Positions 2,447-20,712 of a stretch of 22,741 nt of DNA are shown here, piece after piece (the stretch's first letter is position 1; each line of letters opens with the position of its first letter). The notes beneath the pieces were generated by a model. The model was not told where the DNA came from. It did no database searches and saw only the letters and a list, made by a program, of their open reading frames with translations. The position numbers were made by a program, and so were the translations under genes. Source of the DNA: a virus; the IMG/VR virus record IMGVR_UViG_3300027325_000013, positions 1 through 22,741 of that record. One strand, 5' to 3'.

Positions 2447-2782
2447 ATGGTTGATAAGAGTGAAGAAAAGCTAAAAGCAGTTCCAGAAGAAAAAGTTTCA
2501 ATAATGTCAGCAAGTACGGCTTATCTAGTTATTGCTTTTTTTGGTGCATTAGGAACTTTTTATTTAATAATCAAGCCAGAGATAGAAGACTTAGTTAGAA
2601 ATTCACACGATCGACAAAGTCAAGAAATGCAGTATAGACATAAGGAATTTGAAATAACAATGCAATTTAAGAAGGATATTCAAGACGGTAAGATTCTTGA
2701 CTTAAATAGTCGGATTACAAAGTTGGAAGAAAACCTTGAAAATTGTAAAATTGAATTAAATAAGTGCCAAAATGATAAATAA
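2447..2782 (+). CDS. Single-pass membrane protein with coiled-coil tail (candidate i-spanin or holin)
   Basis: This 111-residue protein has a charged N-terminus (1-18), one hydrophobic segment (about 22-43, rich in Ala, Ile, Val and Phe) and a long charged helical C-terminus (about 45-108) with heptad-like Leu/Ile spacing near LNSRITKLEENLE. That layout matches inner-membrane spanin subunits (Rz type), which have an N-terminal membrane anchor and a periplasmic coiled coil. Some class III holins look similar. Its end overlaps the start of the endolysin gene by 11 bases, and a lipoprotein follows, which strengthens a lysis role. No classical Shine-Dalgarno is seen. The exact function is inferred. 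Confidence 0.55.
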   Translation: MVDKSEEKLKAVPEEKVSIMSASTAYLVIAFFGALGTFYLIIKPEIEDLVRNSHDRQSQEMQYRHKEFEITMQFKKDIQDGKILDLNSRITKLEENLENCKIELNKCQNDK

Positions 2783-3290
2783 ATTGCAAAACTATTATAA
2801 ATTAACAAGTCTTAAATTTTACATAAATAAAGTTTGTTCCGAATTTAATATAGATCCAGAGATACTGAAAGCTATAGTATGGACTGAATCAAAAGGTAAT
2901 CCAGACGCAATAAGATATGAAGAAGGTTTTTATGTTAGGTATGTTAGAAATCAAAGACCATTAATTGGACATCACAGCAAGGGTGTTTGCTCATATAAAA
3001 CTGAAAAGCATAGTAGATCAATGAGTTGGGGGCTATGTCAGATAATGGGGCAGACAGCAAGGGAACTTGGGTTTAAGGGCGATTTCTGTTCTGAATTGAA
3101 CGATCCTAAGACTAATTTATATTATGGTGCAAAGTGTTTAAGATCTAAAATTAATCAAGAAAAAGGCGATTTATATGCGGGCATATTAAGATATAACGGC
3201 GGGGGCGATCCTAATTATACATCAAAAGTTTTAAACAATAAAAAGGTAAAATATGAAGAAGTGTTTTTTAATATTATTGATAATTTTTAG
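2772..3290 (+). CDS. Lytic transglycosylase (SLT family), probable phage endolysin
   Basis: This 172-residue enzyme is predicted to cleave the MurNAc-GlcNAc bond of peptidoglycan. The goose-type/SLT signature is visible: the catalytic Glu39 in AIVWTESKGNP, then SWGLCQIMG (about 85-93), then LRYNGGGDPNY (about 139-149), the usual AYNGG-type block. There is no signal peptide, so release across the inner membrane would need a holin. It overlaps the membrane protein before it (11 bases) and the lipoprotein gene after it (38 bases), forming a compact lysis cassette. There are several cysteines (22, 73, 89, 106, 122). A virion-associated muralytic role is an alternative, but the neighbours favour lysis. 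Confidence 0.85.
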   Translation: MINKLQNYYKLTSLKFYINKVCSEFNIDPEILKAIVWTESKGNPDAIRYEEGFYVRYVRNQRPLIGHHSKGVCSYKTEKHSRSMSWGLCQIMGQTARELGFKGDFCSELNDPKTNLYYGAKCLRSKINQEKGDLYAGILRYNGGGDPNYTSKVLNNKKVKYEEVFFNIIDNF

Positions 3291-5522: not shown

Positions 5523-6530
5523 TCAATCTTGAAAATCTTTAGCTACTAATTCTTCTTCTTCTAGTTTTTTTTCTTCTAGGGAATCAGCAGTTTCTAGCTT
5601 AACTTCAACTTCTGGGTTTGGAATACCTTGTGTTTCAGCTTCCGCTTCCGCTTCTGGAACTATTTCAGCTTCCGCTTCCATTTCATTTTTTAAAGCAGTT
5701 TGATGCAATTTGTTATACTTATTTACAGTTGATTCTATTTTTAAAAGCGGAACTGGGCAAGAAGCTATCAGCTTTCCGCCTTTTCTAATCAAGCTACATT
5801 GGTTTTCTTCAAGAAACTTTTTCATATTCAAATATGCTTCTTCTGGCATTATGTTTTCACAACCAGTTAAATCATAATTAATAGGCTCAACATCAATATC
5901 TGGCTCATTTTGTTTTACATTACGAATTGAACCTTCTGGCATTTCTTCTTGTGTATAAATACCGCTCATTTGTTGTGGAAATGCTTTTCTTAAAGCAGTT
6001 GATTCAGCACACTTTGAAAGTAATACTCTAGGCATACGCCCCCAAATCATAAGTTTACCTTTTGAAGAAACTAAATCTTGGGCGTATTCCTTCCAATATA
6101 CAGTTATTGAAGTAGGCATTTTTCTATCTTTTCTGTAAACTTTACAAGTTGCTGAAACTGGGGCTTCAACAATATGATCTACATAAGTTGATGATCCGTT
6201 TTCCCATTTAGTTATTTTAATAGGAATTTCAATTATTTCTTCTGATAGTATAATTTCAGATCCGTCATATTGTGGGTGGCGATTTGCTATTTCATAGAAA
6301 CCATCTATTCCAGTCATAATTTGAACTTTTCTATAGCTATCTTTTCCCGTTACGATACACCAGATTTGCTTCAAAAATGGATTTAATCCAGAAGCCTTGC
6401 AAACTTCACTGAACATTGCAAATTCAGCGTCATTAGTTCCAACAGCAACTGTTTGCTTTAGTGTTTTAATCATATCTTTACTGGTAAAATCTAATCCACC
6501 AGTTGAAGTTGTCATTATTTCATTTGTCAT
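5523..6530 (-). CDS. recT: RecT/Bet-family single-strand annealing protein
   Basis: This 335-residue phage recombinase is expected to bind single-stranded DNA and anneal complementary strands during phage recombination and replication repair. The Bet-type family pattern is clear: SGLNPFLKQIWC (47-58), MTGIDGFYEIANRHPQYDG (72-90), WKEYAQD (146-152) and LSKCAESTALRKAFPQQMSGIY (171-192). The C-terminus is odd: from about 283 the protein is a Glu/Ala-repeat acidic tail, probably disordered and resembling the acidic tails of SSB-type proteins. Neighbouring genes encode a DUF1351-like and a Gp157-like protein, both common recT companions. No lambda-type exonuclease is seen; the VRR-NUC at 12421 is the only clear nuclease apart from TerL. 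Its promoter and leader are nearly identical to those of gp157. Confidence 0.9.
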   Translation of the reverse strand: MTNEIMTTSTGGLDFTSKDMIKTLKQTVAVGTNDAEFAMFSEVCKASGLNPFLKQIWCIVTGKDSYRKVQIMTGIDGFYEIANRHPQYDGSEIILSEEIIEIPIKITKWENGSSTYVDHIVEAPVSATCKVYRKDRKMPTSITVYWKEYAQDLVSSKGKLMIWGRMPRVLLSKCAESTALRKAFPQQMSGIYTQEEMPEGSIRNVKQNEPDIDVEPINYDLTGCENIMPEEAYLNMKKFLEENQCSLIRKGGKLIASCPVPLLKIESTVNKYNKLHQTALKNEMEAEAEIVPEAEAEAETQGIPNPEVEVKLETADSLEEKKLEEEELVAKDFQD

Positions 6531-6567
6531 AATATAGTCCTTAATAATTTATAAATACATTTGTATC
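6527..6567 (-). repeat. 41-bp direct repeat, copy 1 (recT leader)
   Basis: This stretch, covering the recT start codon, Shine-Dalgarno, leader and the -10 region, is identical base for base to 11391-11431 in front of the Gp157-like gene. It reads as a duplicated promoter-leader cassette. Confidence 0.9.
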
Positions 6568-6589
6568 ACAGACGCAATACAAATGTAAA
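6556..6589 (-). promoter_or_regulatory. recT promoter with paired TACAWWTGTA operators
   Basis: Two near-palindromic 10-mers, TACATTTGTA (6556-6565) and TACAAATGTA (6578-6587), lie 22 bp apart as an inverted pair. On the minus strand TTTACA (6584-6589) and TACAAA (6560-6565), separated by 18 bp, make a sigma70-like -35/-10. Each promoter element thus coincides with one motif, so bound protein would block RNA polymerase. Confidence 0.55.
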
Positions 6590-6593
6590 GACC

Positions 6594-7094
6594 TTAATTT
6601 ATATTTCTATATAAATTTCCTTTAACTCTTTTTGGATATAATTTGCGATCCCCGTTGTAGCAACCCAATGCACCATCTAAAGTTTTAAATCTATCATAGC
6701 AATTTCTTAATACTATCAAACCGCATTTAATACTGGTTCTGGGAATTAATAATTGCCTATGTGATTTTAAATTACACTTGTCTTTATGAAACCCATAAAT
6801 TACTTGCGTTAATCCATAGCTAGTAGCTAAATTCTTTTCCTTCCAGTTAGCTTTCAATTGCATTTTCTTAAACAGTTTAGCTTCAAACCTTTCAGCTTCT
6901 GGTTTATATCTGGATTCAGTAAAAACTAAAGCCCTAAATATTTCAGAAGGTATTCCGTATTTAGGCGACAATTGGAATATTAATTTATCTATATATTCTT
7001 TAGAGTAGTTTTTATTCCATTGCGACTGGGCGTGCATTATGCTAAAATTAGAAGCAAATATTGATGTGATTATTATTATTATTATTTTATTCAT
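6594..7094 (-). CDS. Exported lytic transglycosylase (SLT family)
   Basis: This 166-residue protein has an N-terminal Sec signal peptide: MNK, then a run of six Ile and a hydrophobic core to about 20, with a likely cut after HA at position 22. A compact SLT domain follows. Visible motifs are the catalytic Glu60 in ALVFTESRYKPEA, SYGLTQVIYG (92-101) and GALGCYNGD (141-149). It would act on peptidoglycan in the periplasm without a holin. It lies in the leftward early-type cluster upstream of recT, not in the lysis cassette, which already has a leaderless transglycosylase. Roles could include wall remodelling, superinfection effects or an auxiliary lysin. No good Shine-Dalgarno is visible, and a hairpin precedes the start. 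Confidence 0.8.
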   Translation of the reverse strand: MNKIIIIIITSIFASNFSIMHAQSQWNKNYSKEYIDKLIFQLSPKYGIPSEIFRALVFTESRYKPEAERFEAKLFKKMQLKANWKEKNLATSYGLTQVIYGFHKDKCNLKSHRQLLIPRTSIKCGLIVLRNCYDRFKTLDGALGCYNGDRKLYPKRVKGNLYRNIN

Positions 7095-8369: not shown

Positions 8370-8739
8370 AAAGATTTCCTTCCAGTAAATTTTCTTTAAA
8401 CTGTTTAGCGTCTTCTAGTTTTCTTCTACGGTTGCCCCATAATAGACTTGGAACTATCAAACCTTTATAAACAACCCCGCTACTATGTTTAAAAGGCTTA
8501 GATAATATAAACCCTTCTGATTGCATTTTACATCTAGAACGACGCATTGATTCAAAATTATCAAATTCTTTAGATACCGCTTTTAATATTTCAGCCCCAG
8601 TATATGTTGCTTCTGGATCTATTCTTTGATTGTAAGCTAAAACATAAGCGTATAACTTTTGATCTGAATCCCTTGCTTCTGGGTGTTTTAATAGAATCTT
8701 ACAAACTAATTCAGCTAATCTTTTATTTAGTTTTTTCAT
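8362..8739 (-). CDS. Putative winged-helix-type phage protein
   Basis: This 125-residue basic protein has AAAGG before its ATG. Its pattern resembles a widespread uncharacterised phage family. It has an N-terminal helix ending in LLKHPEARDSDQKLYAYVL (about 16-34), then NFESMRRSRCKMQSEG (about 61-76), which looks like a recognition helix, and a C-terminal basic stretch (GNRRRKLEDAK). Members I recall have a 'hPeaRdsD...L' then 'sFesi.R.Rrk.QeeG' arrangement and often lie in early or regulatory regions. A DNA-binding role is likely but not proven. Confidence 0.5.
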   Translation of the reverse strand: MKKLNKRLAELVCKILLKHPEARDSDQKLYAYVLAYNQRIDPEATYTGAEILKAVSKEFDNFESMRRSRCKMQSEGFILSKPFKHSSGVVYKGLIVPSLLWGNRRRKLEDAKQFKENLLEGNLYE

Positions 8740-8740
8740 A

Positions 8741-8962
8741 TTAAACCTTTAGTGTTTTAATTTGTTTTTCTTGATCCGCTTCTGAAACTCTTAGATATTT
8801 TAATTTAGATTTAACATTTAATCTGGCTTCTTTTAGATTAGCAATTACTTTTGCTTTAGTTAAAGAACTATCTTTTGGAAATTTATAATCCATTTTCAAA
8901 TTCTTATCTATAACCTTTAAACTCAATAGTAAATTTAATATTTTCTTTTTATCCGTTGTCAT
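8741..8962 (-). CDS. Small lysine-rich hypothetical protein
   Basis: The 73-residue product is basic and mostly helical, with many Lys and Leu and no cysteine. GGGG lies about eight bases before the ATG. Its stop is one base from the start of the next gene, so the pair is probably co-translated. Composition suggests a small nucleic-acid-binding or partner protein; there is no recognisable motif. Confidence 0.45.
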   Translation of the reverse strand: MTTDKKKILNLLLSLKVIDKNLKMDYKFPKDSSLTKAKVIANLKEARLNVKSKLKYLRVSEADQEKQIKTLKV

Positions 8963-9226
8963 TTAAAGACCCCGAACTTTCATATTATTAACAGTGTCAG
9001 CGATTAGTTCGTCCAAACCATTTTCATCAAATGTTTCTTTTATTATTTGTTGAATATTAAGCCTTACTGATCCGTCTGTTGCAATAAATTCAGAAATTAA
9101 GTTAGAAACTAACTTACTTACTTCTTTTTCTATAACTTCCTTTAAATCAAAATGACTTGATAAACTATCTTTAACCATTTCCACAATTGCTTCTTGAATT
9201 GAATCGTAAATATCTTCTCTTGACAT
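8963..9226 (-). CDS. Small acidic helical hypothetical protein
   Basis: I place the start at ATG 9226, which has a strong AAAGGA Shine-Dalgarno. A longer frame back to 9289 would overlap the upstream gene by 50 bases and lacks a ribosome site. The 87-residue product (MSREDIYDSIQEAIVEMVKD and following) is acidic and helical throughout, with repeated ValGlu/IleAsp pairs, like a small oligomerising helix bundle. No family is recognised. Confidence 0.5.
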   Translation of the reverse strand: MSREDIYDSIQEAIVEMVKDSLSSHFDLKEVIEKEVSKLVSNLISEFIATDGSVRLNIQQIIKETFDENGLDELIADTVNNMKVRGL

Positions 9227-9239
9227 AATTTCCTTTTTA

Positions 9240-9473
9240 TTAATTATTCTTAAAATACAGTTTGCATTGATAAAGTTCTGGATCAGCATTACAAGTGTTA
9301 ATCATTTCTTGATACTTTTGAAACCTTATCTGATCCAGTTTTCCAAGTTCTTTATTTAACTGTAAGATCATAAATATCAATATAGGTATAAAAACGGTAA
9401 CTATCAGTGAAATACCAATAGTTAAACCGTTCTTTTCTAGAATTTGCATTACTTTTTTATCTAGATTATTCAT
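9240..9473 (-). CDS. Small membrane-anchored protein
   Basis: The 77-residue protein has a charged N-terminus (1-15), one strong transmembrane segment (about 17-39, with many Ile, Val, Leu and Phe) and a polar C-terminal part containing two cysteines (about 60 and 70) in a helical context. Its ATG lies two bases after the stop of the Acb2/Tad1-like gene, with no separate Shine-Dalgarno, implying translational coupling. Function is unknown. Confidence 0.5.
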   Translation of the reverse strand: MNNLDKKVMQILEKNGLTIGISLIVTVFIPILIFMILQLNKELGKLDQIRFQKYQEMINTCNADPELYQCKLYFKNN

Positions 9474-9475
9474 AG

Positions 9476-9751
9476 TTAAAATTCAGAATTATTAGTTTCA
9501 ACTGGTTCTGGATTATAAACATCAGCAGTTGGTTCAACCTTATCATTTTCTGGATTGTATGATTCTGGATATGGGTTTAATGCCCCTAATCTAGATAATT
9601 CCATACCTAACCACATTTTAGCTTCTTGTAATTTAGTCTTACTAAGACTTGTTTCTCTACTTGAACAAATTAATTCTTGTTCTATTTTACTAATTGCAAC
9701 CCTTAAAGTTTTTACTTCTTTAATTGTCATTGTTCTTACTTCTTCTGTCAT
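9476..9751 (-). CDS. Probable Acb2/Tad1-type helical-hairpin protein (anti-CBASS/anti-Thoeris candidate)
   Basis: The 91-residue product has two predicted helices (about 8-29 and 31-56) and then a Pro/Asn-rich tail with NPYPESYNPEN and EPTADV. The segment SRETSLSKTKLQEAKMWLG (31-49) matches, from memory, the conserved second helix of phage proteins in the Acb2/Tad1 hairpin family (pattern RE.aLa.TKLeEA.MW). Characterised Acb2 and Tad1 proteins are sponges that bind cyclic oligonucleotides or cyclic ADP-ribose signals of CBASS and Thoeris defence. It has AGGGA before its ATG and lies in the early cluster, as expected for an anti-defence gene. Ligand-binding residues cannot be confirmed here; many family members are untested. 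Confidence 0.5.
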   Translation of the reverse strand: MTEEVRTMTIKEVKTLRVAISKIEQELICSSRETSLSKTKLQEAKMWLGMELSRLGALNPYPESYNPENDKVEPTADVYNPEPVETNNSEF

Positions 9752-9765
9752 AATTTCCCTTTTAA

Positions 9766-10683
9766 TTAAAATGATTCTTCAACATTAATTTGATTTTCAA
9801 AATATAAATCAACCAGTTCTTCTTGTGCTTTTTCAAGCGTATCAAATCTAGTTTTTATATACTTTGAAACTTTTTTTCTATAAGTAGCAGAACGGGTTTT
9901 TTTCAACGCTTCCGCTTCTTGCTTTTCTTTTTCAGCTTTTTCTAATCTATCTTTTTCAGCTTTTAATTCAGCTTCTTTTCTTTCAGCTTCCAGTTTAACT
10001 TGCTTTTCATATTCCAGTTTAGCGTTCTTTTTTCTGGTTTCTTCCAGTTCAGCTTCCTTTTCAGCGTTAATTTTACGCTGTTCTTCCAGTTCAGCTTCTC
10101 TTTTAGCTTTTTCTTCGGCTTCTAGTTTAGCTTCTTCTTTACGCTGTTTTTCAACTTCTTCAAATTGAACTTTAGCTTCTGAAAGCATTACAGTATAATC
10201 ATCATCAGAAACTTCTTTTAGGGCTACAATGTCAAACTGATAACCCAGTTGAGTTAATTCCTTAATTCTATCAGCATAAATGCGTTGGGCTTTTTGTTCA
10301 GCTTCTTGCTTCTGGCGTAACTTCTCTTGCTCAATTCTTGTTTTTTCAGCATCTACTTTTAAAATCTGTTCAGCCAAATGCCTTTCAGCTTCTACAACTG
10401 GATTAGATAATCCTTTAGCTTTTTTATCAACCAGACGCCCATATTCCAAAGCGTCTTTTTTTAATTCTTTACGCCTTTTTTCTATTGAAACCCTTAATGA
10501 AGTTAAATCTTTTTTAAAATCTTTAGCTTTCTTATAGTTTTCAATATCATTAAAATCAGAAACTTCTATGCTCAAACCTTCTTCTTTTAATTTGTTGATT
10601 TTTTCTAGTGTAGTTTCAAAGGTAATTAAACCTTCAAAAGTTGAATCTTTTTTTACTAATACTTCTTTATTTTCTTTTGTCAT
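9766..10683 (-). CDS. DUF1351-like coiled-coil protein of the recT module
   Basis: This 305-residue protein has an N-terminal globular/helical part (1-110), including YKKAKDFKKDLTSLRVSIEKR and a basic KKAKG segment. A very long charged coiled coil (about 115-270) follows, almost entirely Glu, Lys, Ala, Arg and Gln, and then a short C-terminal domain (about 272-305). The N-terminal pattern resembles DUF1351, a family often found beside phage recT genes; its role is not established. The start has AAAGG. The coiled coil shows internal repetition (EAELEE-type units), so copy-number variation between relatives is likely. A recombination-accessory role is inferred from context. Confidence 0.6.
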   Translation of the reverse strand: MTKENKEVLVKKDSTFEGLITFETTLEKINKLKEEGLSIEVSDFNDIENYKKAKDFKKDLTSLRVSIEKRRKELKKDALEYGRLVDKKAKGLSNPVVEAERHLAEQILKVDAEKTRIEQEKLRQKQEAEQKAQRIYADRIKELTQLGYQFDIVALKEVSDDDYTVMLSEAKVQFEEVEKQRKEEAKLEAEEKAKREAELEEQRKINAEKEAELEETRKKNAKLEYEKQVKLEAERKEAELKAEKDRLEKAEKEKQEAEALKKTRSATYRKKVSKYIKTRFDTLEKAQEELVDLYFENQINVEESF

Positions 10684-10692
10684 AATATACCT

Positions 10693-11394
10693 TTATTTAA
10701 TGCTTACGCTTCTGTTTGATCTTAAATATGCTGAATTTGTTCTTTGCAAATTGATAGCAATTAAAACTTCTTCTTCTGAATAAGTTAAATAAGATTTATT
10801 TACTTCTTCCAGTTCAGCTTCTAAATCCTTAATTGTTTTTTCAATCATTTCATTAGTTGAATCTTTAGCCCCTTGCTTCCAGTCTTCCAGTTCCCCTTCC
10901 AAATGTTCTTTATTTTCAATTAACATTGCTAATTTTAAATATGGCTTTAAATCCTTTTTGCTAATTTTTCTTTCAGTTCTAACAGTAACAAATTGTTCTG
11001 GAATAGCTTCTTCATTTATCAGCTGAACCGATTCAGTTGTTTTTGTATAAACAGTTCCAATTGAAGTTGAAATATTCCAACCTTTTTTAATGTTCATAGA
11101 CAGATAGTTTTTCATTGATTGGATTTTATTATTTCTAATCTTTTCAGCTTTTGCTAATCTATCTTTTTCTTCTTTAATCATTTTAGCTTCTGATTCCAGA
11201 TTTCTAATCCATTTATAAATAGATTCAACTTTATCATCTAAATCAATCTTTAATTCAGATAGTTCAGAAAACAATTGATCTTTTAACTTGATATCTACTT
11301 CCCCAGTTTCTGGGTTAATAGTGTTTCCCTTTTCGTCCCACTGGTAGTTTTTTGTTATTTCCCAGATTTCTTGGGTTATTTCATATAATTTCAT
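10693..11394 (-). CDS. Siphovirus Gp157-like protein with an internal insertion
   Basis: The 233-residue product opens with MKLYEITQEIWEI and contains the family-like helix block DDKVESIYKWIRNLESEAKMIKEEKDRLAKAEK (53-85), then MKNYLSM and a strand pair GTVYTKTTESVQL (113-125) followed by EEAIPEQFVTVRTERKISKKDLKPYLK. This matches the Sipho_Gp157 family, linked in Streptococcus thermophilus phage Sfi21 to phage resistance and common near recT. Members are usually shorter (around 160-170 residues). Here about 55-60 extra helical, charged residues (roughly 152-208) appear before the usual C-terminal strand (AYLRSNRSVSIK). AGGA precedes the ATG within the 41-bp repeat. Confidence 0.7.
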   Translation of the reverse strand: MKLYEITQEIWEITKNYQWDEKGNTINPETGEVDIKLKDQLFSELSELKIDLDDKVESIYKWIRNLESEAKMIKEEKDRLAKAEKIRNNKIQSMKNYLSMNIKKGWNISTSIGTVYTKTTESVQLINEEAIPEQFVTVRTERKISKKDLKPYLKLAMLIENKEHLEGELEDWKQGAKDSTNEMIEKTIKDLEAELEEVNKSYLTYSEEEVLIAINLQRTNSAYLRSNRSVSIK

Positions 11395-11431
11395 AATATA
11401 GTCCTTAATAATTTATAAATACATTTGTATC
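11391..11431 (-). repeat. 41-bp direct repeat, copy 2 (gp157 leader)
   Basis: Identical to 6527-6567. It covers the start codon, ribosome site, leader and -10 region of the Gp157-like gene. Confidence 0.9.
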
Positions 11432-11452
11432 TTTAATTGATACAAATGTAAA
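11420..11452 (-). promoter_or_regulatory. gp157 promoter with paired TACAWWTGTA operators
   Basis: TACATTTGTA (11420-11429) and TACAAATGTA (11441-11450) form an inverted pair 21 bp apart. On the minus strand TTTACA (11447-11452) and TACAAA (11424-11429) are separated by 17 bp, as a sigma70-type promoter. The arrangement mirrors the recT promoter, with a one-base-shorter spacer, implying co-regulation. Confidence 0.55.
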
Positions 11453-11466
11453 GAGTTTAATTTTAT

Positions 11467-11634
11467 TTAGTTCCAAAACTTTAATTTTTTAATTAAGTTT
11501 CTTCGATTTTGTTTGCGAATTAGCTTATTAACATCTTTAATTAAAAATGTAGTTGCTATTCTTCTGGAAGGAACCGAACGATTCCTTGCAATTATTTCCA
11601 GTCTTTCTTTTTCTGTAAATATTCTATTAGTCAT
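11467..11634 (-). CDS. 55-residue basic protein
   Basis: This short ORF starts within the end of the upstream gene (8-base overlap) and has GGGG six bases before ATG. The product is strongly basic (Arg and Lys about a third of residues). It contains a helix-turn-helix-like TEKERLEIIARNRSVPSRRIATTF (7-30) followed by an Arg/Lys-rich tail ending KLKFWN. It could be a small DNA-binding protein. No named family is recognised. Confidence 0.5.
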   Translation of the reverse strand: MTNRIFTEKERLEIIARNRSVPSRRIATTFLIKDVNKLIRKQNRRNLIKKLKFWN

Positions 11635-13785: not shown

Positions 13786-13839
13786 TATTAAAAAAATCAT
13801 TGTGTATTATATATTTATATATAAGTTTATATATATTAT

Positions 13840-13895
13840 GACACTGGTGTCAGCCCCCCCAGACACTGGTGGCAACCCCCCCCGACACTGGTGGC
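13840..13895 (+). repeat. Three 22-bp phased repeats with poly-C spacers (iterons or operators)
   Basis: A 12-mer GACACTGGTGKC begins at exactly 13840, 13862 and 13884. The first is a near-palindrome (GACAC-TG-GTGTC); the other two read GACACTGGTGGC. The 10-bp spacers contain runs of 7 and 8 C, exceptional in this AT-rich sequence. The 22-bp period puts all copies on about the same face of the helix. Confidence 0.85.
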
Positions 13896-13898
13896 GTT

Positions 13899-13907
13899 TG
13901 CTATAGT
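13899..13907 (+). promoter_or_regulatory. Rightward extended -10 promoter next to the phased repeats
   Basis: TGCTATAGT is an extended -10 (TGN plus TATAGT, 5 of 6 to consensus). At the -35 position there is only poly-C and the third repeat, so transcription would depend on a protein bound to the repeats. It points to the packaging genes, about 115 bases upstream of the first. Confidence 0.4.
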
Positions 13908-14023
13908 GTATTGATATAAGAAAAAATCTAGTTATTAACAGTTTATCAACAACTGAATTTGTAATATTTACAGAATAGAAAAAATAGGGTAATATTTGTA
14001 AAAATTACAGAAAAGATACCAAT

Positions 14024-14494: not shown

Positions 14495-14854
14495 ATGACC
14501 GATACAAAAGTTAATAAAGGCGTTTCAACTACTCATAGAGTAACTGGAAGAAAAAAGAATTTGATCAAAACAATGAAGTCATACGGTATGACCAACGACC
14601 AGATTGCCAATGTATTACAAATCAGCCTTCCGACATTAAATAAGTTTTATCCAAAAGAATTAGAATTTGGGAAGTCAGATATGCTAAAGAAGTTGGCAGA
14701 TACAGTTTACGGCAAGGCTTTAGGTGGTAATTTATCAGCGTGCTTTTTTGTTTTAAAAACTCAATATGGTTGGCGTGAAAAAAATACTATTGAAGTAACT
14801 GAACTTCCAGATATAATAATAAATAAATTACCTAAAGAATCGGAAGACAAATAA
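14495..14854 (+). CDS. terS: Terminase small subunit
   Basis: This 119-residue protein recognises phage DNA for packaging. An N-terminal basic stretch leads to a helix-turn-helix with MTNDQIANVLQISLPTLNKFY (32-52), then FGKSDMLKKLADTVYGKALGGNLSACFFVLKTQYGWREK (59-97). That conserved 'yGKAl.Gn..A..f.Lk...gWre' block is typical of phage small terminases. The large terminase would normally follow directly, but here two unusual genes (a peroxiredoxin-like protein and a small membrane protein) intervene before TerL at 15588. Confidence 0.85.
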   Translation: MTDTKVNKGVSTTHRVTGRKKNLIKTMKSYGMTNDQIANVLQISLPTLNKFYPKELEFGKSDMLKKLADTVYGKALGGNLSACFFVLKTQYGWREKNTIEVTELPDIIINKLPKESEDK

Positions 14855-14855
14855 A

Positions 14856-15449
14856 ATGGGATTAAAGAGAAATTTAGCAATAGATCACTTAATAGAATCA
14901 TATAGAGTAGATAACGAATTAGAAACTTTAGATATGCAGTTTTTAATAATAGTATTTATACCAAAGGCAGAAACATTTGTTTGCCCAACGGAAGTAGCAG
15001 AGTATTTAAAAATACTTCCAGAAGTAGAGATGCGAGAAGGTGGCTTGATGTTTATATCCAAATCTAAATACAAACACTGGTTCAACTGGATCAGAGAATC
15101 AAAGTATTTTGAAGGTATATTAAACAAAACTCAACATACTTATATTCCAGATGCTACTTTAGAATATTCCGATTCATTTGGGGCAATAGATTTCAATCCG
15201 CAATTTGATGAGATAGTTCCGACCAGAACCACGCTAATAATTTCAATCCCAGACAGAAAAGTTGTACATAGAACCTTTAATGATTGGGGGGTAGGCAGAA
15301 GCACCCACGAAACATTAAGAGTTTTAGACGGCTTATTAACAGATGAGATGTGCCCTTGTAACCGAGAAGTTGGCGGGAAAACTATCATACCAACAAGAAA
15401 AGAGATTGAAGAAAATAAATTATTAGAAGGTTTTAAAAATGATAAATAG
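14856..15449 (+). CDS. 2-Cys peroxiredoxin-like protein between the terminase genes
   Basis: The 197-residue protein carries the hallmarks of a typical 2-Cys peroxiredoxin (AhpC/Prx1), a thiol peroxidase reducing H2O2 and organic peroxides. The active site PKAETFVCPTE (36-46) fits PxxxTxxC, with Pro36, Thr40 and peroxidatic Cys43. SKSKYKHWFNWIRE (68-81) corresponds to the SVDSxxxHxAW block. Arg124 sits where the catalytic Arg precedes the LFIID strand. FNDWGVGRSTHETLRVL (141-157) matches the NDxxVGRSxxETLR signature. CP at 166-167 followed by GGKTIIP matches the resolving cysteine and its xTIKP tail. The Cys43-Cys166 spacing (123) is close to the family's about 121. The first 25-30 residues of the fold (PAPDF region) appear missing or reshaped. 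It starts one base after terS. Activity is unproven, but all key residues are present. Confidence 0.85.
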   Translation: MGLKRNLAIDHLIESYRVDNELETLDMQFLIIVFIPKAETFVCPTEVAEYLKILPEVEMREGGLMFISKSKYKHWFNWIRESKYFEGILNKTQHTYIPDATLEYSDSFGAIDFNPQFDEIVPTRTTLIISIPDRKVVHRTFNDWGVGRSTHETLRVLDGLLTDEMCPCNREVGGKTIIPTRKEIEENKLLEGFKNDK

Positions 15450-15588
15450 AAAAGCGTGTTTGGAAATATTAGCAATTACATTAATATCTTCAATTACTAT
15501 TGCAATTCAATCAGTTTGGCTTGTTTTCTTAGGTAGGTTAGCGTGGGAAGTAATAGAATTTATATTAGAAATTAATGTATTTATTTAA
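15439..15588 (+). CDS. 49-residue membrane microprotein between peroxiredoxin and TerL
   Basis: This short ORF overlaps the end of the peroxiredoxin-like gene by 11 bases, has AGAAGG eight bases before its ATG, and its stop overlaps the TerL start (TAATG). The product has a charged N-terminus (MINRKACLE), a long hydrophobic stretch (about 10-32) and a second amphipathic/apolar C-terminal part. One or two membrane helices are expected. TerL has no other ribosome site, so translation of this ORF may be needed to start TerL. Function is unknown. Confidence 0.6.
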   Translation: MINRKACLEILAITLISSITIAIQSVWLVFLGRLAWEVIEFILEINVFI

Positions 15589-16988
15589 TGCCAGTTAAAA
15601 AGACCATAGATTTACAATGGTGGGCGTCAGAGTGTATAGAAGACTATTTATCTGATTATTTATTTGTAACTGGTGGTTATGGAATAGGGAAAACCTTTTC
15701 TGGTGTATTATGGAGTTTAGACCGAGCTAAGAAAAACCCTAATACTGAAATTCTGAATATAATGCCTAAATATTCTTTGATCCAAGATGTACTGATTCCC
15801 ACATATAGAGATGTTTTAAATATATTTGGAAGGATTGAAGGAAAACATTATACAATTAATAAATCAGAATTAAAAATAGATCTGGGCAATGGTAATGTAA
15901 TTCACTTCCTAACTGGGGAAAAGCCAGAAAAGATTGTTGGTTTTAACAGAGTAGCTTTTGCGTGGCTAGACGAATCAGCGTTAATGGTTAGACAAGTTTA
16001 TGATAATGCGGTTGCCCGTTGCAGATTTGTTGGTTCAAATACAAAGCCCCAGATGTTAATGAGTTCAACGCCAGAAGGTTTAAACTGGTTCAGTGAAGAA
16101 GCTGATTCAGATGCACAATCTGGTTGGGATAAATCCGAAGATAAAGATCATACTAAAACTGATATGATAGAACTGGAAGGCGAACAGATAGAGATTAAAA
16201 AGAGAAGGTTCAGAGCTACAACCTTTTCAAATAAACAGAATTTAGCCCAGACCTATATACCAAGTTTATTAAAGGCTTATCAGCACAATGCAAATAAAGT
16301 TGATTCTTATGTATATGGTTTTTTTAGACCGTTCACTTCTGGTATGGCTTATTCTAATTTCAAATATGGAATTCATATCAAGAAACCAATGCCCGCTGAA
16401 CCATATTTTGATATTCATTTAAGTTGGGATTTTAACATTTGCCCGCAATGGGTAGTGGTTCAAACTTATTATGAAAGCGACGAGCATACGGGAAAAAGAA
16501 AAAGATTTAATTATGTAATTGACGAAGCAAATAGCAATGGCGAAACTTTAGAAGACGCCGTTGTTGAATTTATAGTTAAGTTCCCGCTGAAAGACTTCCA
16601 AGACACCCCAATATATATATATGGCGATTCTTCTGGGCGTGCCAGAAGTCATAAAGGAAATGGGGCTTCTGATTACGATAATATTATAGGTATATTAAAA
16701 GAAGCGGGGTACAATAAAATTAGTTTACGGGCAATTAAATCAAATCCGCTTGAAAGGGTCTCAGTTGATTTAGTCCAGAAGCTATTTTTTCAAGACGAAT
16801 TATTTATTTGTGATAATTGCCCAAATGTAATTAGATCGGTAACAAATACGGTATGGAAAAATGGGCAACGGCAGAAGCTAGATAAACCTTCCAATGATAC
16901 TTGGACGCACCCAATGGATTCATTGAAATATTATGTTTGTGCGGTATATGACAATAAAAACCATTTTATAGGAAATTATGGACGATAA
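15588..16988 (+). CDS. terL: Terminase large subunit
   Basis: The 466-residue packaging motor has an N-terminal ATPase and a C-terminal RNase H-like nuclease. Walker A is GGYGIGKT (29-36), Walker B VAFAWLDE (122-129), followed by SSTPEG (159-164), the coupling motif. Nuclease acidic residues are Asp281 in LSWDFN, Asp347 in YIYGDSSG and Asp444 in THPMDSLKYYV. The enzyme pumps DNA into the prohead through the portal encoded just downstream (11-base overlap). There is no independent Shine-Dalgarno; the ATG overlaps the stop of the 49-residue ORF. It reads as full-length. Confidence 0.95.
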   Translation: MPVKKTIDLQWWASECIEDYLSDYLFVTGGYGIGKTFSGVLWSLDRAKKNPNTEILNIMPKYSLIQDVLIPTYRDVLNIFGRIEGKHYTINKSELKIDLGNGNVIHFLTGEKPEKIVGFNRVAFAWLDESALMVRQVYDNAVARCRFVGSNTKPQMLMSSTPEGLNWFSEEADSDAQSGWDKSEDKDHTKTDMIELEGEQIEIKKRRFRATTFSNKQNLAQTYIPSLLKAYQHNANKVDSYVYGFFRPFTSGMAYSNFKYGIHIKKPMPAEPYFDIHLSWDFNICPQWVVVQTYYESDEHTGKRKRFNYVIDEANSNGETLEDAVVEFIVKFPLKDFQDTPIYIYGDSSGRARSHKGNGASDYDNIIGILKEAGYNKISLRAIKSNPLERVSVDLVQKLFFQDELFICDNCPNVIRSVTNTVWKNGQRQKLDKPSNDTWTHPMDSLKYYVCAVYDNKNHFIGNYGR

Positions 16989-18603
16989 GAATAGAAATAA
17001 AGAAGGCGTTGAATTATTTAACAATCCAAAATACAACGAATTATTGGAAGACTGGAAAAAATATAGGGATATTCTGGAAGGAAAAAAATCTACTATGACA
17101 CAGCCTAAGTATCTTTATTTGCACGAAATGGAAAATTTAGCAGAAGGTTGTGATTCCAGACTTCAAGAAATTGCTACCAGAATAAGAAACAATCGAGAAG
17201 AACGAACCGAATATATAAATTATATTAAAATGATTGTGAACAGATTAGTCAGTTTAATTTTAAAAGGTGGATTTGATACAGACGAAGTAGATGAGATAAT
17301 GGGCGAAGCATTAAATAATATAGATGGTTTCAATTCTACAATTGATGAGTATTCCAGAAAGTTAGTTGAAGACATTTTAGTTTATGGAATTTGTTATAAC
17401 TTAACAGATAAATCAGATACAAAGCCTAATTCAATCAAAGAAGAAAAGGAAATGGGATTATTGCCATACTTTACTAGAATTGCCCCGTTAGATCATAAAG
17501 ATTGGGAATATCAGTATAAAGAAGAAAATTCAATGCGTGGGTATGAACTTATTGCAAGTAGATATGAATTTTATAATGAAGAAGCTAGGGGCGGGGATTT
17601 AACCCAACAACCTAAAGAAGTTTTATATTGTAGGCTGAATTATTTAAAAGATGATAAATACAATATTCAGTTTTATAAATCTAATATCACTAAAGAAACT
17701 GTAAGATCATTAAATGTGAATACAAATCTTAGAAAAGATACTAACTTATCAGAACATTGGGTTCTGGATAAAGAGATTAGTAATTTAGAATTACCATTTA
17801 TACCAATTGCCAGTTCTAGGCAGTCAGAAAGCTATATTAAGGATTTAATACCAATAGCATTAAAGATCTATAACAAACAATCCAGTTATGACAATATTCT
17901 TTATTATCAAGCCTACGACAGAATTTTTATAATGACTGATCTAAAGGCACCGACTGGAAAAGATAAAGATACAGAAGTTTATCTGGGGGCAAGTTCTATT
18001 ACTAAATTAGCCCAAGACGATAAAGTGATTAAACTAGATCCGACAAATCCAATTGCATTAAGTGAATCAATATCAAATGATATTCAAGACTTTTTCAGAA
18101 TTGCCTTCTTGCAGAAGCGAACAGTAAACCAAAATTCAAGAACTGGCGAATCAGCAGATACACTTAAAGAGCAAAAAGAAGACTTGTTTACATATATTAA
18201 AATGATTAGACAAGAATTTTTAGATGTACTAAATACTTCGGTTCAGCATTTTGCCCAGTTCCAGAACAGTATTGACTTTGAAGGGAAATTAGCTTGGAAG
18301 GAAGACATTGACGAAGATGATATTGATAAGTTCATTAATTATGTTACTAGGCTTTCAGATGTAATTGCTAGATATCCAACACTTACTAAAGCGGTTCATA
18401 AGAAGTTAGTTCAATCACAATCATTTGCGGAAGAATCAGAGATATTAGACGAAATAGAAAATACTTCTGATGATTTATTAAATGAAGAAAAGGAAGAATC
18501 AAGGTTAATGGAAATAGAATCAGCAATAAATAGTAATAAAAAGGCTACAAGTGAAAGTAAATCCAGAAGCGGTGTACAAAAATCGGGTACGGTTAGTAAA
18601 TAG
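16978..18603 (+). CDS. Portal protein
   Basis: The 541-residue protein follows TerL with an 11-base overlap and AGGAAATT before its ATG. Length and layout fit the SPP1 gp6-like portal family: an N-terminal region with YINYIKMIVNRLVSLILKGG (80-99), a central wing, then a long C-terminal helical segment (about 380-460, FRIAFLQKRTVNQNSRTGESADTLKEQKEDL) typical of portal stem and crown, and a disordered Ser/Lys tail. It forms the dodecameric channel at the capsid vertex. Identification rests on position between TerL and the MuF-like gene and on overall pattern. Confidence 0.85.
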   Translation: MDDKNRNKEGVELFNNPKYNELLEDWKKYRDILEGKKSTMTQPKYLYLHEMENLAEGCDSRLQEIATRIRNNREERTEYINYIKMIVNRLVSLILKGGFDTDEVDEIMGEALNNIDGFNSTIDEYSRKLVEDILVYGICYNLTDKSDTKPNSIKEEKEMGLLPYFTRIAPLDHKDWEYQYKEENSMRGYELIASRYEFYNEEARGGDLTQQPKEVLYCRLNYLKDDKYNIQFYKSNITKETVRSLNVNTNLRKDTNLSEHWVLDKEISNLELPFIPIASSRQSESYIKDLIPIALKIYNKQSSYDNILYYQAYDRIFIMTDLKAPTGKDKDTEVYLGASSITKLAQDDKVIKLDPTNPIALSESISNDIQDFFRIAFLQKRTVNQNSRTGESADTLKEQKEDLFTYIKMIRQEFLDVLNTSVQHFAQFQNSIDFEGKLAWKEDIDEDDIDKFINYVTRLSDVIARYPTLTKAVHKKLVQSQSFAEESEILDEIENTSDDLLNEEKEESRLMEIESAINSNKKATSESKSRSGVQKSGTVSK

Positions 18604-19965: not shown

Positions 19966-20712
19966 ATGACTAAAGAAAATGAAGAAAATACGGTTTCAGC
20001 AGAACAGTTTGCAGAAGTGCAAACCCAGTTAGCAGAAGCAACAAGTAAAATGACTGAATTAACAAATAAAAATTCAGAACTAAGCGAACAGCTAGGCATT
20101 TATAAAGGTGTTGATTTAACTAAAATTGAAGAAGACCGCCAGAAGCTAAGAGATTTACAAACCCAATCAGCGGGCGGTAATCCAGAACAAATAAATCAAA
20201 TGGTTGAAGAACGAGTTAATCAAGAAAAAGAACGGTTCAAATCAGATTATGGAAGCAAAATAACTGATCTAGAAGAAAGGCTAGGGGCTAGGAATCAAGA
20301 ACTTAAAGAATTAAAAGTTGTAGATCGAGCCTTCGGGAAAGTTTCAACAATGATTAATGAAGATGTTGCGGAAGACATCAAAAACATAATACGCCGTGAT
20401 GTTGATATGGTGGAAGGAAATTTAGTTGTTAAAGATTCAGAAGGTAATATTCGGTTGTCGAGAGCCAACCCGAAAAGCAATATGTCTTTAGATGAGTATA
20501 TATCTGAATTAAAAACAGCTAGACCGTCATATTTTAGACCAGAAGGAAAAAGTGGTGCGGGGCAACCGAACCAAAATAGAACTACTGGTGGAAATGGTGG
20601 ATCGTCGGCTTTAGATTCAATAGATAATAAAAGATTTGTTGAAGATGATAACTATAGGAGAAGTTTAGATCCTAAGATACAATATGCTAAAGCGAAACAA
20701 TTAGGGCTTTAA
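19966..20712 (+). CDS. Capsid scaffolding protein
   Basis: The 248-residue protein is acidic and helical. A long coiled-coil-like region (about 8-120) is rich in Glu, Gln and Lys (AQLAEATSKMTELTNKNSELSEQ and LEERLGARNQELKEL), then a middle domain and a Gly/Asn/Pro-rich linker (about 195-225) lead to a short C-terminal helix. Its place immediately upstream of the major capsid gene, and the helical/linker/C-terminal-helix layout, fit DUF4355-type scaffold proteins that guide prohead assembly. There is no visible protease domain. The Shine-Dalgarno is weak (AGGTAAT). Confidence 0.7.
   Translation: MTKENEENTVSAEQFAEVQTQLAEATSKMTELTNKNSELSEQLGIYKGVDLTKIEEDRQKLRDLQTQSAGGNPEQINQMVEERVNQEKERFKSDYGSKITDLEERLGARNQELKELKVVDRAFGKVSTMINEDVAEDIKNIIRRDVDMVEGNLVVKDSEGNIRLSRANPKSNMSLDEYISELKTARPSYFRPEGKSGAGQPNQNRTTGGNGGSSALDSIDNKRFVEDDNYRRSLDPKIQYAKAKQLGL

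Follow-up and report, generated by a model that had tools for sequence, protein, structure and literature searches.

Among the described systems closest to the phage protein considered here is AhpC from Mycobacterium tuberculosis (MtAhpC), in which the disulfide between C61 and C174 is handed over to C174 and C176, to be then reduced by AhpD or TrxC (PMC5505994). Among viruses, ahpC has been noted in those of Microcystis (PMC12542629), and infection by phage YerA41 is reported to raise antioxidant genes of the host itself, among them a peroxiredoxin, Dps and catalase (PMC7354516). Annotated phage peroxiredoxins include those of Synechococcus phage S-SCSM1, Microcystis phage MaAM05 (prxU), and an Acinetobacter phage (ahpC), all of them sharing less than 31% identity with the protein of this study.

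AhpC is not rare in phages: it is common in environmental ones, usually together with its reductant AhpD. A scan of IMG/VR for the motif TFVCPTE returned at least 120 stretches. Among the matches listed, AhpD lies within 5 kb in 82 of the 103 loci that have 600 bp or more of downstream sequence, and no more than 100 bp downstream and on the same strand in 48 of these 103; a clustering-based count, also among the matches listed, places AhpD in 91 of 119 AhpC loci. These AhpC-AhpD pairs (phrog_20402), partly from T4-like phages, carry the AhpC signature GRSPEETLRVLDALQTGELCACNRxxGG and have their cysteine pattern in common with the protein described below. Contrary to it, they come with AhpD, have a more typical AhpC, and stand mostly apart from the sampled bacteria. 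Two Dps-like genes (phrog_3636) were also seen near the AhpC locus of one of these stretches (L051).

The stretch of DNA analysed here (the window; 22,741 nucleotides) comes from a small uncultured phage and is a fragment of the viral record IMGVR_UViG_3300027325_000013 (positions 1 to 22,741). Its packaging and head region contains the following features:

14495..14854, + strand: terminase small subunit (terS) with HTH, 119 aa (phrog_309, E=3.8e-10)
14856..15449, + strand: AhpC-type three-cysteine peroxiredoxin (Prx), 197 aa (PF00578, TIGR03137, phmmer against the PDB, AlphaFold model with Foldseek, and conservation)
15439..15588, + strand: hydrophobic ORF of 49 aa with a single TM-like segment (no PHROG match)
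15588..16988, + strand: terminase large subunit (terL), 466 aa (phrog_2, E=4.2e-24; PF03237, E=5.3e-10)
16978..18603, + strand: portal protein (phrog_145, E=3.6e-38)
19966..20712, + strand, same late direction: head scaffolding protein (PF06810, E=6.9e-6, below cutoff; phrog_206, E=3.4e-16, a value from a scan of the genome ORFs in which the matching ORF is not named)

The Prx gene runs from an ATG to a TAG and belongs to a series without gaps, in the order terS, Prx, 49-aa ORF, terL and portal. The stop codon of terS lies 1 nt ahead of the Prx start, the 49-aa ORF overlaps the end of Prx by 11 nt and the start of terL by 1 nt (TAATG), and terL and portal overlap by 11 nt. The first-pass annotation had placed the peroxiredoxin between the two terminase genes; both terminases are confirmed by profile, with the addition that the small TM-like ORF also intervenes before terL. 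No promoter or terminator signals beyond chance were found around Prx or between the genes of the operon. The GC3 and codon use of Prx are the same as those of terS and terL, so the gene is probably an old resident of this genome. Upstream of the operon, between divergent transcripts, tandem near-copies of 'gacactggtggc..cccccc' occupy positions 13800-13920, a possible regulatory or origin-like element.

The family of this protein is supported by several searches, with matches well outside what chance would give. The AhpC-TSA profile PF00578 matches it at 32.6 bits (E=8.9e-8), above the gathering cutoff of 26, and phmmer against the PDB retrieves a solved 2-Cys peroxiredoxin (E=3.6e-13). The NCBI AhpC model TIGR03137 also matches (E=3e-8), and its score of 33.6 bits is far below the equivalog cutoff of 272, which is why we do not file Prx as an AhpC equivalog; other NCBI peroxiredoxin models match as well, well under their curated cutoffs. 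The 1-cysPrx_C domain (PF10417), which had been proposed as a second profile check, gave no match at E<=1 in the Pfam search, a domain that is not obligatory in AhpC, since the viral AhpC of locus L089 likewise goes without it. No PHROG matched the protein. Its AlphaFold (AF2) model has a pLDDT of 81.8 and a pTM of 0.76, and was built on an alignment of 47 Prx relatives, so that the fold partly depends on the family assumption. The best PDB match of this model in Foldseek is MtAhpC (2bmx_B; E=1.3e-10, probability 1.00), in agreement with the thioredoxin-like peroxiredoxin fold that had been anticipated, and the C-terminal loop at residues 169-175, in the region of the resolving cysteine, is of low confidence (pLDDT<50).

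The translation contains the motif PKAETFVCPTE, with P36, T40 and the peroxidatic cysteine C43, followed by R124, FNDWGVGRSTHETLRVL, and CP at 166-167. C43, C166 (resolving) and C168 are its only cysteines, the last one in a CPCN context two residues past C166, and both C166 and C168 are at least 90% conserved in an alignment of 48 sequences. The distance between the peroxidatic and resolving cysteines is 123 residues, within the ranges of the viral (109-136) and bacterial (113-136) relatives. The AhpC/Prx1-type protein with complete catalytic residues that the first-pass annotation had recognised, including its typical cysteine spacing, is thus borne out. Its designation as 2-Cys peroxiredoxin-like needs adjusting: with exactly three cysteines, the protein fits a three-cysteine AhpC, a type served by AhpD or thioredoxin, better than a generic 2-Cys peroxiredoxin. 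It falls within the AhpC-TSA superfamily and combines its three cysteines with catalytic features of the AhpC/Prx1 type. MtAhpC, at 27-30% identity, shares with it the C-x-C resolving motif and the same catalytic residues, and differs in that the phage protein has a short N-terminus, lacks several near-invariant residues, and has no phage-encoded AhpD or thioredoxin.

All ten residues P36, T40, C43, W78, D99, R124, G147, R148, R155 and G173 of Prx are invariant in the 48 aligned sequences. Set against some 160 relatives from viruses and bacteria, Prx retains 21 of 29 near-invariant columns, C166 included, and has lost eight, none of them a cysteine (positions 10, 38, 39, 57, 70, 77, 130 and 144), the missing residues including the equivalents at D38, F39, F57, D70 and D130. 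The peroxidatic cysteine is found at position 43; in the relatives, its median position is 51 for viruses and 53 for bacteria, with 43 as the lowest bacterial value. The positions in the relatives are approximate, as their starts were trimmed by script. The earlier description of the protein as truncated at the N-terminus was therefore overstated: the N-terminus is somewhat short and divergent, and the core complete.

Prx is also extremely divergent. Its nearest relative is 39% identical, and the closest cellular one found, an AhpC from Trinickia (Burkholderiaceae; L132), shares 39-43% identity; the C-terminus LRVLDGLQTDEMCPCNREVGGDTL of the Trinickia protein is near-identical to that of the phage, but this high identity is only local, the rest of Prx being far diverged. 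In a maximum-likelihood tree, its end branch is about 9 substitutions per site long (median, 0.14), which makes its placement beside viral sequences unusable. A branch with full support in this tree splits most viral AhpC sequences from the sampled bacterial ones. One exact motif served to gather the viral sequences, and the bacterial ones come from a partial sample (547 genomes of two phyla, picked for their resemblance to the window protein), so that this split is a lead rather than proof of a phage-only clade. An IMG/VR protein search with Prx recovered only a near-identical record and one relative of 30% identity, and a DNA pattern search for DEMCPCNRE only the same genome. Searches with the portal, terL and tail proteins found no related phage, with or without Prx, terL yielding just the distant L005; the matches of terL and RecT, all below 35% identity, are spread over phages of many hosts.

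Such a long branch, in a single phage species with neither close relatives nor a reductant of its own, would be expected of a host gene that was captured and now drifts with no function. We consider this very improbable, given that the ORF is intact and keeps every catalytic residue despite about 60-67% divergence, and that it is retained in a compact genome, overlapping neighbours with equal codon usage. The same branch, the loss of near-invariant non-catalytic residues, and the slot between terS and terL could also suit a ring or chaperone-like scaffold, no longer peroxidatic and repurposed for the packaging machine. This is quite improbable too: Prx keeps its peroxidatic and resolving cysteines as well as Arg124 and the PxxxTxxC motif, which would be unexpected were catalysis dispensable, no virion or packaging homologue was found, and the only viral structure significantly matched by the model (in BFVD) comes from Synechococcus phage S-SCSM1 and is itself annotated as a peroxiredoxin. 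None of the roles contemplated in the first-pass annotation, be it in structure, as a chaperone or in packaging, found positive support here.

As the window is of metagenomic origin only, a chimeric assembly or host contamination might in principle have put a bacterial gene between the terminase genes. A second record, IMGVR_UViG_3300009417_000002 (36,839 bp), contains the window at 99.97-99.98% identity with the same gene order, which makes a chimera very unlikely, and ends in a 123-bp direct repeat, as expected if the genome is complete, at about 36.7 kb, and was assembled as a circle. The codon usage of Prx is like that of its neighbours, their start and stop junctions interlock, and no close bacterial copy was found in the sampled bacteria; we thus regard an artefact as largely refuted and extremely unlikely.

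Among the 44 ORFs of this genome (G001), no member of the AhpD (CMD), thioredoxin, glutaredoxin or thioredoxin reductase families was found, and no integrase was recognised among the scanned ORFs at the thresholds used. The family of Prx is already known; what is unusual is its slot, its divergence and its missing partner. Other observations concern the early and late genes. An imperfect direct repeat of 95 bp (83%; 6515-6606 and 11376-11468 in the window) lies over the starts of the early genes RecT and Gp157, and is possibly a promoter or leader common to both. Two separate SLT transglycosylase-like genes are encoded, one on the late strand (2772-3290, +) and one on the early strand (6594-7094, -). 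A 91-aa ORF (9476-9751, -) shows a weak match, below cutoff (E=2.9e-4) and over 23 residues only, to the Acb2/Tad1 hairpin domain, which occurs in anti-CBASS and anti-Thoeris sponges; this match may be due to chance.

Taking together the catalytic residues kept despite divergence, the intact place in the operon, and the redox genes that accompany its phage relatives, the best reading is that of an active peroxidase: Prx is probably a three-cysteine thiol peroxidase of the AhpC type, carried by the phage and competent in catalysis, which is recharged by host thiols and made late, together with the packaging proteins. By analogy with MtAhpC, Cys43 would reduce H2O2 or an organic peroxide, becoming a sulfenate that Cys166 from the partner subunit would resolve; Cys168 would then take over the disulfide (C166-C168), and a host reductant, either thioredoxin or an AhpD/lipoyl system, would recharge the enzyme. 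We infer a host-supplied reductant because the phage encodes none that is recognisable, and a late synthesis along with the packaging and head genes because of the uninterrupted run from terS to portal. Made at that stage, Prx would clear peroxide from the infected cell and, while virions are assembled, protect exposed DNA and those phage proteins that contain cysteines. The missing phage reductant, the low-confidence region of the resolving cysteine, and the TIGR03137 score far below cutoff count against this peroxidase reading, and the extreme divergence, with its lost near-invariant residues, is compatible with an altered or lost activity.

The first-pass annotation had also regarded the gene as unusual for a packaging module. 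It is indeed uncommon and, in the open-licence literature, we found no report of a peroxiredoxin between terS and terL. It is not unique, since comparable placements occur in at least two other lineages and in one further phage. Among the matches listed, terL lies within 5 kb of the peroxiredoxin in nine T4-like loci of one lineage (blastp with a 599-aa terL). Four other loci (L059, L098, L053 and L035) had been brought up by the phrog_2 search and were excluded from this count because their ORFs are shorter P-loop proteins, PhoH-like by eye. The other lineage, of 150-kb phages (L092, L190 and L194), has the order peroxiredoxin, thioredoxin reductase and thioredoxin, followed by an ORF of 179-182 aa and terL. 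L190 and L194 have in addition a heme oxygenase between thioredoxin and this ORF (PF01126, E=1.1e-17), and in L190 a portal and a ferritin/Dps-like gene are found farther along, past terL:

L190:7001-14303, also in L194 and L092/L189: redox island around terL in the 150-kb lineage, with AhpC, thioredoxin reductase, thioredoxin, heme oxygenase, terL, portal and a ferritin/Dps-like gene

As in the window phage, the peroxiredoxin of this lineage is encoded just ahead of terL and shares its strand; in contrast, it is accompanied by a full reductant chain and its terL is only distantly related, the HTH protein upstream of the cluster being a candidate terS at most. The further phage (L003), an unrelated one of 50 kb, carries a lone peroxiredoxin (9911-10456) in an opposite-strand cassette adjoining its portal gene. 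That the relatives of Prx travel with redox partners, whether AhpD or the thioredoxin pair, suggests that these proteins serve as peroxidases across phages in general.

This recurrence near terL in two other lineages and beside portal in L003, plus the gapless co-encoding with terS and terL, raises the question of a more specific task, which would involve the cysteine-rich proteins of the same phage:

L129:1591-2397, 8484-9617, 9635-10123 and 10245-10886, in the tail/head region of the genome, outside the window: predicted virion-region proteins rich in cysteine (3.4-7.4%)

These ORFs, assigned to the virion region by position alone, encode proteins of 163 aa (12 Cys, 7.4%), 269 aa (4.5%), 214 aa (4.2%) and 378 aa (3.4%), compared with about 1.2% Cys in other viral loci. 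Prx might accordingly control the redox state of virion assembly or packaging, as a thiol oxidase or relay, or as a shield for these proteins or for terminase. We consider it unlikely: the tie to the cysteine-rich ORFs is one of co-occurrence only, the peroxiredoxins of most other phages are not known to adjoin terL, and cysteine richness is explicable by metal binding or by a habit of the lineage. A dedicated assembly part, that is, a fast-evolved AhpC sensing or setting the thiols of terminase or virion proteins and thereby coupling packaging or maturation to the peroxide of the cell, is decidedly unlikely. A redox function specific to packaging or to the virion is possible, but nothing found here supports it.

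Returning to the peroxidase reading, this phage would have a peroxide-detoxifying enzyme built into its late packaging operon. If Prx is functional, whether oxidative damage limits virion assembly becomes a directly testable matter, and many phages would invest in managing peroxide during infection, an aspect that is hardly discussed in the literature we found.
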